From Halovivax ruber XH-70 (GTDB lineage Archaea > Halobacteriota > Halobacteria > Halobacteriales > Natrialbaceae): DNA of 64,000 nucleotides. The notes under the pieces were generated by a model that saw only the letters and a program-made list of their open reading frames with translations, made no database searches and was not told where the DNA came from. The stretch spans positions 1,116,001 through 1,180,000 of the forward strand of contig NC_019964.1 of NCBI RefSeq assembly GCF_000328525.1. The letters run 5' to 3'. Both the position numbers and the translations under genes were made by a program. This document shows positions 54,312 to 58,972 of this stretch, piece after piece; position 1 is the first letter of the stretch; each line of letters opens with the position of its first letter.

Positions 54312-56009
54312 ATGAGCACGAATACAGAGGACGAATCGTTCCATCCACTCGGTGCTGAGTGGGAGTCAGAGCTCACGTCGATGCTCGACGATACCGAGCA
54401 CGACACGGAGCTCGGACTCGCCATGGCCGAAGATGCCCAGCGACTCGTCGCTGGTGAACTGACGGAAGCCGAGTTTCAGGAAAAGTACCACGAACAGGTA
54501 CTCGACGAGTTCGGCGAAGACGAGCGTCCGACGGCGGACGCGATCGAGGAGCTCGAAGACGAGGACGGCGGGCTCGTCGACGCTCTCACGTCGCTCGCTG
54601 ATGGCGACCAGAGCCGACGTGACGTGATGAAGAAGATGGGCGTCGGCGGTGCCGCACTCGGCGTGGGTGCACTCGCTGACGGCCGAGACCGAGACGCCAA
54701 CGCTCCCTCCTCCGGCGGTGACACCTCCGGAACGCAGTGGGGCATGACGATCGACCTCGAGGTCTGTGACGGCTGTCTCTCCTGCATGCAGGCGTGCGGC
54801 GAGGAGAACAACCTCGACGAGGGCGTCAACTGGATGTACGTCATGGCCTACGAGGACGACACCGTCGGGGCGCCGGAGAATCCCGACGAGGCCAGCGTCA
54901 AGGACTGGCCGTATCTCGTCCGGCCGTGTCAGCACTGTACTGACGCACCGTGTGAGAAGGTCTGCCCGACGACGGCTCGCCACACTCGAAGTAAGGACGG
55001 CATCGTCCTGACCGACTACGACGTCTGTATCGGCTGTCGCTACTGTCAGGTCGCCTGCCCGTACGGGGTCAATTACTTCCAGTGGGACGAACCCGACGTT
55101 AGTCAGGATGCGATCGCGGAACAGCACTCAGACATGACGGGCGATCACATCCACGACTACCGCGACCGACCGGTCGACAGCCGGTCCCCACGTGGCGTCA
55201 TGAGCAAGTGTACGTTCTGCCCGAGTCGCCAGGACGGCTACGGTGGCGAAGACAAGGTCGGGACGACAGCCTGTATGGACGCCTGTCCGCCAGGCGCGAT
55301 CCAGTTCGGTGACGTCAACGAGGACGGAAGCGATCCGAGCGTCTACGCCGACTACCCCGCGTTCGGTCGTGCCGTCGAGAACTTCTTCAACGGTCCGGGC
55401 GGCGCTGCACCAGCATCGCCCCTCCCGTCGATCGACGAGATCGAGTCGGAACTTGGAACGACCGGGGAGGCGACGCTCGACGAGGCGTTCGATCTCTTCC
55501 AGATCGACTTCGTCCAGTCGTCGTACTTCTCGGTGAACGGCTACGAACTGATCGGGACGATTCGAGCGATCACCATCATCGCCGACGACATCGAACTCTC
55601 CAACGATCTCGACCGGAATCGGTCGATGGCGGCTGCAGTCGAGGAAGCCCGCGCCTACAACGATGCGCTCGTCGCGGCCGGCATCGACTTCGAGTCGACC
55701 GAGGTCAGGCGTACGCTCAACCTCGGCGAGGAGACGTTCGGCGACGCTCGTAGCACCCTCAAATCCGTCTTTGGCGACGAGGCCTCGGCGTTCAACCTCC
55801 TGGAGGAGGTCGGAACGAGTCCGAACGTCACATACATCGGTAACGAACCGGGTCCACACGCCCAGCAGATCCCGGCGGAAGAGATCCCCGAGGGCAAAAA
55901 CGTGACACAGTACTCGGACATTACGTACTCCCGGGCCGACGGCTCGGATGCTTCGGTCGTCGACAATCGTATGGACGTGATCGAAGAAGAAACCGTCCGG
56001 GGGCTCTAA
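54312..56009 (+). CDS. Four-cluster ferredoxin-type Fe-S protein (PsrB/NrfC-like) with Tat motif and insertion
   Basis: A 565-residue electron-transfer subunit. Four Cys sets (C152/155/158/162, C206/209/214/218, C239/242/245/249, C300/303/321/325; CDGCLSCMQAC, CQHCTDAPCEKVCP, CIGCRYCQVACP, CTFC with CMDAC) support four [4Fe-4S] clusters as in DmsB/NrfC/PsrB. Residues 1-100 form an acidic helical domain. A Tat-like motif (SRRDVMKKMGVGGAALGVGA) lies internally at 101-120, not at the N-terminus. Between CPPGAIQF and the usual ending (VTYIGNEPGP) about 140 extra helical residues are inserted. The next gene starts directly after the stop; no catalytic molybdopterin subunit is in the window. Confidence 0.88.
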   Translation: MSTNTEDESFHPLGAEWESELTSMLDDTEHDTELGLAMAEDAQRLVAGELTEAEFQEKYHEQVLDEFGEDERPTADAIEELEDEDGGLVDALTSLADGDQSRRDVMKKMGVGGAALGVGALADGRDRDANAPSSGGDTSGTQWGMTIDLEVCDGCLSCMQACGEENNLDEGVNWMYVMAYEDDTVGAPENPDEASVKDWPYLVRPCQHCTDAPCEKVCPTTARHTRSKDGIVLTDYDVCIGCRYCQVACPYGVNYFQWDEPDVSQDAIAEQHSDMTGDHIHDYRDRPVDSRSPRGVMSKCTFCPSRQDGYGGEDKVGTTACMDACPPGAIQFGDVNEDGSDPSVYADYPAFGRAVENFFNGPGGAAPASPLPSIDEIESELGTTGEATLDEAFDLFQIDFVQSSYFSVNGYELIGTIRAITIIADDIELSNDLDRNRSMAAAVEEARAYNDALVAAGIDFESTEVRRTLNLGEETFGDARSTLKSVFGDEASAFNLLEEVGTSPNVTYIGNEPGPHAQQIPAEEIPEGKNVTQYSDITYSRADGSDASVVDNRMDVIEEETVRGL

Positions 56010-57353
56010 ATGAGCGCCGAAACCCCATCCGAGGCGGACATCCTCCGCCCGGTCAACACGCTGACGAAGAAGTGGGTCGCTCTCGTTGCCATCGCTGGGC
56101 TGGCGTTCGCTCTCTTCCTGGTTGGCTGGGCCTACCAGCTGCAGAAGGGGCTCGTCGTCACCGGTCTCGGCGACTGGGGCAGCGGTGGCGGTGTCACCTG
56201 GGGCGTCTACATCGGCGCCTTCATCTGGTGGGTCGGGATCGCCCACGGCGGGATCATCCTCTCCGCAGCCGTCCGACTGCTCGGCATGGAGCGATACATG
56301 CCGGTCGCGCGGATGGCCGAACTCCTGACCCTCGGTGGCCTCTCCGCAGCCGGATTCTACATCCTCGTGCACATGGGACGTCCGGACCGCATGGTCACGA
56401 GTGTCATCAGCCACTATCACATCACGGTCCACAACTCACCGCTTGTGTGGGACGTGACGGTCATCACGGCGTACTTCGTCCTGACGGCGACGTACCTCGG
56501 GCTGACGATTCGCTACGACATCGTCCGTCTCCGTGATGACCTCCCGGACATCCTAGAACCCGTCTACAAGATTCTGACCTTCGGCTACTCGGAAGCCGAG
56601 GACGAGATCATCGAGCGGATGGTCTGGTGGATCGCCGCGGCGATCATCATCATGGCTCCGCTCTTGCTCCACGGCGGCGTTATCCCGTGGCTGTTCTCGC
56701 TCCTCGCGACCTACCCGATCTGGGACGGCGGCATTCAGGGGCCGATGTTCCTCGCGATCGCCCTCACGTCGGCGATCAGCGGTGTGACCATCGCCGCTGC
56801 CGCGTTCACGCGCGCGTACGATTGGCATCACATCATCACCCGTGACATCTTCCGCGGGCTCTTGCTCTGGCTCGGGTTCTTCAGCCTGATGCTGCTGTGG
56901 TTCCAGCTCCAGACGATCATCAACGGCGTCTACTTCCCTGGCGTGGCGGCACTCGAAGCCGCCCACGGCAAACTTCACGCGCCGCTGTACATGGTCTCGA
57001 TGGGGCTGGTGGCCGGCAGTCTGATGTACATCTTCGCCCAGGCGCTTCGACCCGAACTCTTCACCAAGACGCGAGCGATCATCACCGCGTTCGCCGTGCT
57101 GTCGGCGACGCTGATCGAGAAGGTCCTGTTCGTCGTCGAGGGATTCCTCTACGTGCAGTTCAGTATGTACAGCGGGGTCCCCGGGACGTACGTGCCGAGC
57201 CTGATCGAGATCGCGTCGATCCTCGGCACGATCGGGATGGTCGCACTGATCTTCCTGTTCGTCTCGAAGATGATTCCGATCGTCGAACTCCACTCGATCG
57301 AGCACCTTCGTGGCGATCACGATGAGCACGGCTCGACGGAGGTGGAAGCATGA
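56010..57353 (+). CDS. NrfD/PsrC family membrane subunit
   Basis: A 447-residue integral membrane protein with roughly ten helices, the quinone-interacting subunit of polysulfide/nitrite/DMSO-reductase-like and alternative complex III systems. The N-terminal region KKWVALVAIAGLAFALFLVG begins the first helix, and IWWVGIAHGGIILSAAVRLL and GRPDRMVTSVISHYHI carry conserved polar residues of the family. It starts at the base after the Fe-S protein's stop and overlaps the following small gene by four bases. It probably forms a complex with the Fe-S subunit to pass electrons to or from menaquinone. Confidence 0.92.
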   Translation: MSAETPSEADILRPVNTLTKKWVALVAIAGLAFALFLVGWAYQLQKGLVVTGLGDWGSGGGVTWGVYIGAFIWWVGIAHGGIILSAAVRLLGMERYMPVARMAELLTLGGLSAAGFYILVHMGRPDRMVTSVISHYHITVHNSPLVWDVTVITAYFVLTATYLGLTIRYDIVRLRDDLPDILEPVYKILTFGYSEAEDEIIERMVWWIAAAIIIMAPLLLHGGVIPWLFSLLATYPIWDGGIQGPMFLAIALTSAISGVTIAAAAFTRAYDWHHIITRDIFRGLLLWLGFFSLMLLWFQLQTIINGVYFPGVAALEAAHGKLHAPLYMVSMGLVAGSLMYIFAQALRPELFTKTRAIITAFAVLSATLIEKVLFVVEGFLYVQFSMYSGVPGTYVPSLIEIASILGTIGMVALIFLFVSKMIPIVELHSIEHLRGDHDEHGSTEVEA

Positions 57354-57667
57354 GCCTCCTCGCTGGTGCACTCGATGTGACGGCGTCCGCGGTCGCGAAC
57401 CTGCCGCTGTACCACGGCTACGAGCCCACGAGCGGGACGACCGGGTTCTCCGGACCGGGGACGTGGATCATCTTCGGACTGATCCTGATGCCGGTCTACG
57501 TAATGACCATCTCGTGGTTCGTCGGGAACCCGAGCGACGAGAAGACGGGCCTGCTCGGCGTCGTCTACCTCGTCGGGATCACCGCGAACATGTGGGTCGG
57601 GATGTTGATCCTCACCGTCCTGATCGGCCTGGTCTTCTACGGCGGCGCACCGTCGCCGCTCGGCTGA
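57350..57667 (+). CDS. Small membrane protein of the redox module
   Basis: A 105-residue protein with two membrane helices (WIIFGLILMPVYVMTISWFV and VYLVGITANMWVGMLILTVL) and a short N-terminal hydrophobic stretch. ATG 57350 overlaps the NrfD stop by four bases (ATGA), so it is co-translated. It is probably a third subunit or assembly partner of the Fe-S/NrfD complex; I do not recognise the family. It is the last gene of the operon. Confidence 0.75.
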   Translation: MSLLAGALDVTASAVANLPLYHGYEPTSGTTGFSGPGTWIIFGLILMPVYVMTISWFVGNPSDEKTGLLGVVYLVGITANMWVGMLILTVLIGLVFYGGAPSPLG

Positions 57668-57847: not shown

Positions 57848-58972
57848 ATGAGTTCACCAACCACCGAAGACGTCTACGACGCGTTAGCTACCGTCGAGGA
57901 TCCCACGCTCGGCGACGACGTCGTCTCACTCGGCCTCATCAACGATATCGAGATCGACGACGAGACGGTGACCGTCTCACTCGCGCTCAACACGCCGTAC
58001 GACGAGGCGGAAGCGCACGTCGGTACCGCCATCCGCGACGCGATCGAGGAGCTTGGTGCCGAACCGGATATCAGGGCGCGCGTCGGGGCGGACATCGGAT
58101 TCGACGCCGAAGTGCTCCCCCGCGTGAAGAACGTCATCGCCGTCTCCTCGGGCAAAGGCGGCGTCGGCAAGACCACCGTCGCGGCCAACCTCGCTGCCGG
58201 CCTCGAAAAGCGTGGCGCGATGGTCGGACTGCTCGACGCAGACATCCACGGCCCCAACGTCCCGCGAATCCTCCCGGTCGAGAGCGAACCTGGAGTCACT
58301 CCGGACGACGAACTCGTCCCGCCTCGGTCCGACGGCGTTCGTGTCATCAGTACCGGCTTCTTGCTCGAGAACGACGACGATCCGGCCATGCTCCGTGGCC
58401 CGATGGTCAACAAGTTCATGATGAAATTCTTCGAGGGTGTCGAGTGGGGTCGCCTCGACTACCTCGTCGTCGACCTGCCGCCAGGCACCGGTGACGCCAC
58501 GCTCAACCTCCTGCAGGCGATGCCCGTCACGGGGACGGTTATCGTCACGACGCCCCAGGACATGGCACTCGACGACACCCGAAAGGGGATCGAGATGTAC
58601 AACGAACACGACACGCCGGTCATCGGCGTCGTCGAGAACATGAGTTCGTTCGTCTGTCCGAGTTGTGGTGACGAACACCGGTTGCTCGGTGACCGACAGG
58701 GTGTCGAACAGACGCTCTCTGATTACGAGATCCCACTCGTCGGGTCCTTCCCAATGCATCCGGACTTCGGAAAGACCGATGGTCACGGGCCGATCGTCAA
58801 AAACGACGACAGCGAGGTCCAATCGCGTGTCGACGAGACGGTCGAGTCGATCCTCGGCCGGATCGGCGAGATCAACCGACAGCGGGTGGCCGACCATCGC
58901 GGCGAGGGCGAAAACGCCGACGAAGACGCCGAGTCCAGCCCGGTAAAGAGCGAGTACGACGTGTTCGACTGA
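57848..58972 (+). CDS. apbC: Mrp/NBP35 family Fe-S carrier ATPase
   Basis: A 374-residue Mrp-type P-loop ATPase that carries and transfers Fe-S clusters. The N-terminal 90 residues are the MIP18/DUF59 domain (VYDALATVEDPTLGDDVVSL). The deviant Walker A is GKGGVGKTT (102-110), followed by LLDADIHGPNVP. VVDLPPGTGDATL is switch II, and FVCPSCG (about 267-273) supplies the bridging CxxC cluster ligands. The C-terminal 35 residues are acidic. The inverted repeat at 57815 may regulate it. It follows a module of Fe-S proteins whose clusters need such carriers. Confidence 0.94.
   Translation: MSSPTTEDVYDALATVEDPTLGDDVVSLGLINDIEIDDETVTVSLALNTPYDEAEAHVGTAIRDAIEELGAEPDIRARVGADIGFDAEVLPRVKNVIAVSSGKGGVGKTTVAANLAAGLEKRGAMVGLLDADIHGPNVPRILPVESEPGVTPDDELVPPRSDGVRVISTGFLLENDDDPAMLRGPMVNKFMMKFFEGVEWGRLDYLVVDLPPGTGDATLNLLQAMPVTGTVIVTTPQDMALDDTRKGIEMYNEHDTPVIGVVENMSSFVCPSCGDEHRLLGDRQGVEQTLSDYEIPLVGSFPMHPDFGKTDGHGPIVKNDDSEVQSRVDETVESILGRIGEINRQRVADHRGEGENADEDAESSPVKSEYDVFD

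Follow-up and report, generated by a model that had tools for sequence, protein, structure and literature searches.

How do haloarchaea that lack the cytochrome bc1 complex pass electrons from menaquinone to their copper proteins and terminal oxidases? About one-third of haloarchaea, especially Natrialbales, are without complex III, and the route from menaquinone to halocyanin was described as unresolved by Pfeiffer and Dyall-Smith (2021, PMC8305020); the same gap was stated in the genome paper of Natrialba magadii (2012, PMC3403918). The question is raised by a three-gene operon in a 64,000-nucleotide stretch of the Halovivax ruber XH-70 genome (NC_019964.1, positions 1,116,001 to 1,180,000; hereafter the window), which encodes an iron–sulfur (Fe-S) subunit, FeS, an NrfD-type membrane protein and a small protein with two helices. 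The operon probably encodes, as judged from its genes, a minimal menaquinol:cupredoxin (halocyanin) or menaquinol:CuA-oxidase oxidoreductase, which resembles alternative complex III (ACIII) and replaces cytochrome bc1.

A first-pass annotation, made from the DNA letters alone, had described the three open reading frames as a tight operon, and this holds: NrfD begins one base past the stop of FeS, leaving no gap, and shares a 4-nucleotide overlap with the small gene. It had also seen that the window contains no catalytic molybdenum (Mo) subunit, correctly, and had suggested either a stand-alone menaquinone:acceptor complex or a catalytic subunit borrowed from elsewhere. The genome is complete, as a single contig of 3,223,876 bases, and no molybdopterin oxidoreductase (PF00384) was found anywhere in its 3.22 Mb, with Haloferax volcanii and ten other controls positive, so the idea of a catalytic partner fails. 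The stand-alone complex is the suggestion that we support, narrowed to a substitute for bc1. The gene order FeS-NrfD-small-Mrp, where Mrp is the Mrp/Nbp35-type ATPase gene downstream, recurs in around 40 Natrialbaceae loci and is a conserved haloarchaeal unit; as no Mo gene accompanies it in these loci, modules of this family are normally orphans.

Cytochrome b (PF00033) is absent from the H. ruber genome, the H. volcanii control being positive. After this had been seen we surveyed 292 Halobacteria genomes by profile, taking the module as present where the best match to the window NrfD had E<1e-140 (weaker best hits of NrfD begin only near 1e-57) and compiling the group counts for PF00033 against NrfD by hand. 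Cytochrome b was absent from 69 genomes, and a strong NrfD match was found in 67 of these compared with 29 of the remaining 223 (Fisher p=5e-40 overall, 6e-8 within the family of H. ruber and 8e-9 outside it, relatedness being ignored). Within that family, represented by 74 genomes, all 56 that are without cytochrome b carry the module, while the ten that have no strong NrfD match all have cytochrome b, so that none lacks both. The same complementarity is repeated outside the family, in groups f3 (g38, g57), f10 and f11, and also within the single genus g38. On the NrfD tree four changes of cytochrome b status are needed, at least two of them forced by well-supported branches. One genome nested among cytochrome-b-less relatives in this tree (G224, locus L180) combines three cytochrome b matches with the module, including the long insertion described below; it is possible that it re-acquired bc1.

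The remainder of the respiratory chain was examined in the H. ruber genome. Cytochrome bd (PF01654) is also absent, with H. volcanii again positive, and was thus rejected as a bypass of complex III. Three Rieske proteins were considered as remnants of bc1 and rejected, being of an FAD-linked, a 632-residue and a 164-residue type and having no cytochrome b; the combination of PF00033 with a Rieske partner that would identify a cytochrome bc1 or b6f complex is not present. There are four heme-copper oxidase catalytic subunits, each of which adjoins a subunit II with the CuA motif Cx3Cx3Hx2M, and six cupredoxin matches. CuA oxidases are normally fed by a one-electron carrier. As all four oxidases have a CuA subunit II, a one-electron donor should be needed, and a component other than bc1 must therefore oxidise menaquinol and reduce that carrier.

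The NrfD protein belongs to the NrfD family (PF03916, 80.3 bits against a gathering threshold of 25.8, E=2.5e-22) and was modelled with a mean predicted local distance difference test (pLDDT) score of only 64.5. Its four PDB sequence matches at E<1e-10 are all ActC of ACIII (8e-20 to 2e-12), and the best folds for the model are likewise four ActC chains, with template modelling (TM) scores of 0.66–0.69, ahead of ActF and PsrC (PsrC 0.35/0.55). Residues were mapped using the list for Rhodothermus ActC given by Calisto and Pereira (2021, PMC8076601). Among the residues of the ActC quinone site, His139 is found in 44 of 45 module NrfDs and Ser164 and Asp169 in every one, so that three of the four are retained and the protein is likely to be a quinol-binding NrfD of the ActC type. 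Nine of the 13 residues of the N-side channel are also kept, together with Glu394, and the gate residue Arg395 is a lysine throughout; the N-side half-channel suggests, though it does not show, ion translocation. The Mo-linked haloarchaeal NrfDs do not have His139, His97, Glu122 or Arg196 (ActC numbering). The FeS subunit contains 16 Cys, the number counted in the first-pass annotation, all within residues 126–345 and arranged in four 4-Cys motifs, and the best alignments of its core are to ArrB and to the C-terminal part of ActB. We propose that the ActC-like His/Ser/Asp site of NrfD would bind menaquinol close to the outer side of the membrane, and that the four clusters of FeS, once it is exported, would carry the electrons on to halocyanin or straight to a CuA oxidase.

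The known ACIII (ActABCDEF; Flavobacterium, Rhodothermus, Chloroflexus, Roseiflexus) is similar to the module in its ActC-like NrfD, in sequence, fold and quinone- and N-channel residues, in the C-terminal part of ActB, and in being found where bc1 is absent, with CuA oxidases as the presumed partner. The module differs from it in being archaeal and in having PF16947 and a helical insertion added to the Fe-S subunit. A survey of ActB reported no archaeal member (PMC10100899), and the 42 archaeal ‘DmsC’ sequences that Calisto and Pereira (PMC8076601) grouped with ActC, ActF and DsrP were given no respiratory role of this kind. If the proposal is correct the module would be, to our knowledge, the first archaeal and the simplest ACIII, having neither hemes nor a Mo-like domain. 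It would then help in studying how quinol oxidation by NrfD proteins is coupled to ion transport, and would correct the likely annotation of such genes as orphan polysulfide or dimethyl sulfoxide (DMSO) reductases. The module is a concrete and testable candidate for the missing link between menaquinone and the copper proteins or oxidases in haloarchaea without bc1. No paper that mentions both NrfD and halocyanin was found in a literature search in which coverage of subscription journals was thin.

A number of points weigh against this proposal. The fourth residue of the ActC quinone site, Asp253, and most residues of the P-side channel are not conserved in the module NrfDs. The grouping with ACIII rests on residues and the modelled fold, and in a tree that included ActC the branches were too long to place the module NrfD or to settle the matter. 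Several parts that define ACIII are missing: the 565-residue FeS has no Mo-like ActB domain, nor is there any PF00384 protein in the genome to supply one; the 16 Cys all belong to 4-Cys motifs and provide no [3Fe-4S] site; the operon has no heme-c subunit (ActA or ActE), heme-c proteins not having been searched for across the genome; and the NrfD is the only one in the genome, so that there is no ActF. The module, because of these absences, is not a member of ACIII, and it is by analogy that it may work like one. In the survey, 29 genomes carry the module and cytochrome b together, and two small genomes without cytochrome b (G011 and G095, 2.1–2.2 Mb) have no close module, though we suspect these to be strict anaerobes. 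Finally, some CuA oxidases use quinol directly, the B-family CuA oxidase of Aquifex taking both cytochrome c and naphthoquinol (PMC8251803). Species without bc1 could then rely on quinol-oxidising terminal oxidases, leaving the module to do other work such as passing electrons from an exported donor to the menaquinone pool, in the manner of Qrc and in the reverse direction. Quinol oxidases were indeed inferred for three natronoarchaea with neither complex III nor alternative homologues (Sorokin 2018, PMC6176080), and DsrO and QrcC are the nearest models to FeS in NCBIfam. We consider this explanation unlikely, given that the CuA motifs are complete in all four oxidases of the genome, that the near-perfect complementarity with cytochrome b would need another cause, and that no gene beside the module codes for a multiheme protein or for another exported donor.

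The genes around the module and its relatives would fit a copper-based acceptor. In Halovivax genomes an FeS paralogue (65% identity over residues 4–349) is divergent from an adjacent CuA aa3 oxidase operon. Three Natrinema loci (L022, L029 and L054) have genes for oxidase subunits I and II, the latter with CuA, upstream of the module, and some of them also encode SCO1, halocyanin, a CtaA/UbiA protein and DUF2249. Of 39 loci, 12 have NirK-family genes close to the module and up to 14 have DUF2249 genes. A separate cluster in the H. ruber genome (L170 4443-14789) contains an HTH_10 regulator, DUF2249, a UbiA/CtaA fusion-like gene, a CuA oxidase, a copper ATPase and a NirK that scores above the cutoff of TIGR02376. 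The module neighbours are consumers of one-electron copper carriers or proteins that help to build them. The NirK and DUF2249 genes, including the NirK of H. ruber itself, might be taken to mean that the module feeds halocyanin for NirK, as a branch of nitrogen-oxide respiration, rather than serving oxygen respiration in general. This seems improbable, as most loci have no NirK nearby, oxidase genes adjoin the module too, and the link to the absence of bc1 is far broader.

Other systems in which an Fe-S protein is paired with an NrfD without Mo catalysis of its own are QrcABCD and DsrMKJOP. The highest NCBIfam score for FeS was with DsrO (138.8 bits, cutoff 200), with QrcC at 123.5 (cutoff 400), and the only match for NrfD was DsrP (58.8, cutoff 350), so that by the curated cutoffs none of these assignments can be made; the module also adjoins no partner subunit of the cytochrome c3 or Dsr type. 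A DsrOP-like module that oxidises or reduces a sulfur compound would be in keeping with the identity of these top matches. We regard it as very improbable, both scores being far below cutoff and no Dsr-type subunits or sulfur enzymes having been seen adjoining in the examined loci (the genome as a whole was not searched for DsrK, DsrM and DsrJ).

The N-terminal part of FeS may give an indication of where the module came from. Residues 1–98 include 32 Asp or Glu and only 3 Lys or Arg, bearing out the acidic domain of roughly 100 residues noted in the first-pass annotation, and within them the whole of PF16947 is matched (112.2 bits, gathering threshold 25, E=1.2e-32, profile positions 1–65 of 65). 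The twin-arginine translocation (Tat) signal that follows scores 21.0 with TIGR01409 (curated cutoff 16.7) and its Arg102-Arg103 pair is invariant in 24 relatives, from which FeS is predicted to be exported. Its internal position had been thought odd. Since a known haloarchaeal domain precedes it and the DsrO match begins at residue 99, it is an ordinary N-terminal signal behind an added domain. A wrongly assigned start codon was considered as the reason for the internal position and rejected, because the PF16947 domain ahead of the signal is complete and conserved. The acidic domain may stay inside the cell or escort export. A Halostagnicola orthologue (L048 7956-9401) has lost nearly all of PF16947 but retains its initial residues and Tat signal.

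PF16947 is present in 147 of the 292 Halobacteria genomes, in many cases as an open reading frame ~80–110 codons long. We examined 23 stand-alone genes (including L153 8705-8944, L154 8193-8429, L155 9124-9363 and L187-L206, with a Pfam check for two), all of which are directly upstream of a gene for a molybdopterin subunit, often with a 4-nucleotide overlap, and are followed mostly by PsrB, NrfD and TorD genes. The Pfam name, Ferredoxin_N, therefore obscures a possible role as partner or chaperone for complex iron–sulfur molybdoenzymes (CISM) that are exported by Tat. The Mo proteins inspected downstream start with a Tat signal, and the order PF16947, Tat, Fe-S, NrfD is identical in these operons (FerN-Mop-PsrB-NrfD-TorD; L155, L187-L206) and in the window, minus the Mo body. 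They differ from the module in that PF16947 has a gene to itself, the Tat signal is part of the Mo subunit and the NrfD shares only ~26–35% identity, whereas the module has no Mo body and combines PF16947, Tat signal and Fe-S core in one protein. The simplest reading, tentative since Tat signals carry little information, is that the window FeS arose by fusion after loss of the Mo body. With PF00384 absent, the module has no molybdenum bis(pyranopterin guanine dinucleotide) (Mo-bisPGD) catalytic subunit and so is not itself a CISM enzyme. That it is the orphan remnant of a Mo reductase of the Psr, Dms or Arr type using a catalytic subunit encoded elsewhere is hardly credible, despite the derivation of its Fe-S and NrfD parts from the CISM family and the usual place of PF16947 before Mo subunits; the absence of PF00384 and the conservation of the operon without a Mo gene already refute it in H. 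ruber, barring a catalytic subunit too divergent for Pfam to recognise.

FeS has ~145 extra residues (346–490) after its last cluster and ahead of the conserved C-terminal ‘..GTSPNVTYIGNEPG..’, a number close to the 140 or so helical residues first reported. They were modelled as a helical domain, for which a fold search of the PDB gave no match; the Fe-S part of the same model is of low confidence because the alignment is shallow. The length of the insertion varies among relatives. The chain after the last Cys is 102–115 residues long in ten of 11 measurable relatives from genomes with cytochrome b (the exception has 203) and 112–391 in genomes without it (Mann-Whitney p=0.001, relatedness not removed), and in Natrialbaceae orthologues it is nearly always 175–294. 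The insertion had been singled out as special, and it is indeed absent from most relatives in cytochrome b genomes; it is, however, normal in Natrialbaceae orthologues and hence not unique, so that it is best described as a lineage feature. It may occupy the place of the missing catalytic subunit and perhaps dock the acceptor.

A tentative history, which we offer as possible and would not press, is that haloarchaea built their own complex III from a PF16947-Mop-PsrB-NrfD operon by removing its Mo subunit. Fusion would have joined the chaperone-like PF16947 with the Tat signal and Fe-S protein, the NrfD would have kept its ActC-like proton and quinol machinery, and a new helical domain would have replaced the catalytic subunit as the dock for a copper protein. 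The resulting heme-free complex would then have displaced bc1 several times, in around one-quarter to one-third of haloarchaea.

Features of the operon and the adjoining ATPase gene, with positions counted from the first base of the window
Feature	Position	Strand	Details
Fe-S electron-transfer subunit (FeS), predicted Tat-exported	54312..56009	+	565 aa; 16 Cys in four 4-Cys motifs; four [4Fe-4S] clusters expected
Ferredoxin_N domain (PF16947), acidic, helical	54342..54536	+	FeS residues 11-75
Tat signal SRRDVMKKMGVGGAALGVGA	54612..54671	+	FeS residues 101-120
Fe-S core	54738..55316	+	FeS residues 143-335; alignment with ArrB, PsrB, DsrO and C-terminal part of ACIII ActB
Helical insertion, lineage-specific	55347..55781	+	FeS residues ~346-490; pLDDT mostly 80-94; no PDB fold match
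NrfD/ActC-like membrane subunit	56010..57353	+	447 aa; ten long helices; ActC quinone-site residues His121, Ser143, Asp148
Small subunit, two transmembrane helices	57350..57667	+	105 aa; kept with module; no known family
Mrp/Nbp35-type Fe-S carrier ATPase	57848..58972	+	adjoins module in 36/39 loci

The small gene is present in 35 of the 39 loci, and two transmembrane helices are predicted in its product and in all 48 homologues called. The Mrp/Nbp35-type ATPase is probably a helper that loads clusters into the module.

Copies of the individual components are also found apart from the operon. The FeS paralogue beside the aa3 oxidase (L061 8242-9561; G000:C1:1979241-1980560) is without the long insertion and has no NrfD of its own. 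Many Natrialbaceae have a second, solitary NrfD (~72% identical to the window NrfD; L136-L141) with no adjoining Fe-S gene, and many have solitary Fe-S genes at separate sites (L161-L167); neither kind of copy is beside oxidases in these genomes. An in-frame TAG had been flagged in the solitary NrfD copies, and in the one that was checked it was only upstream or the normal stop. The solitary Fe-S copies in L161-L167 have 15 Cys, and in the solitary paralogues L038 7962-9587 and L043 7977-9584 one cluster Cys is replaced by Asp (KCVFDP for KCTxCP), so one of their clusters may be altered, as it is in ActB or QrcC.

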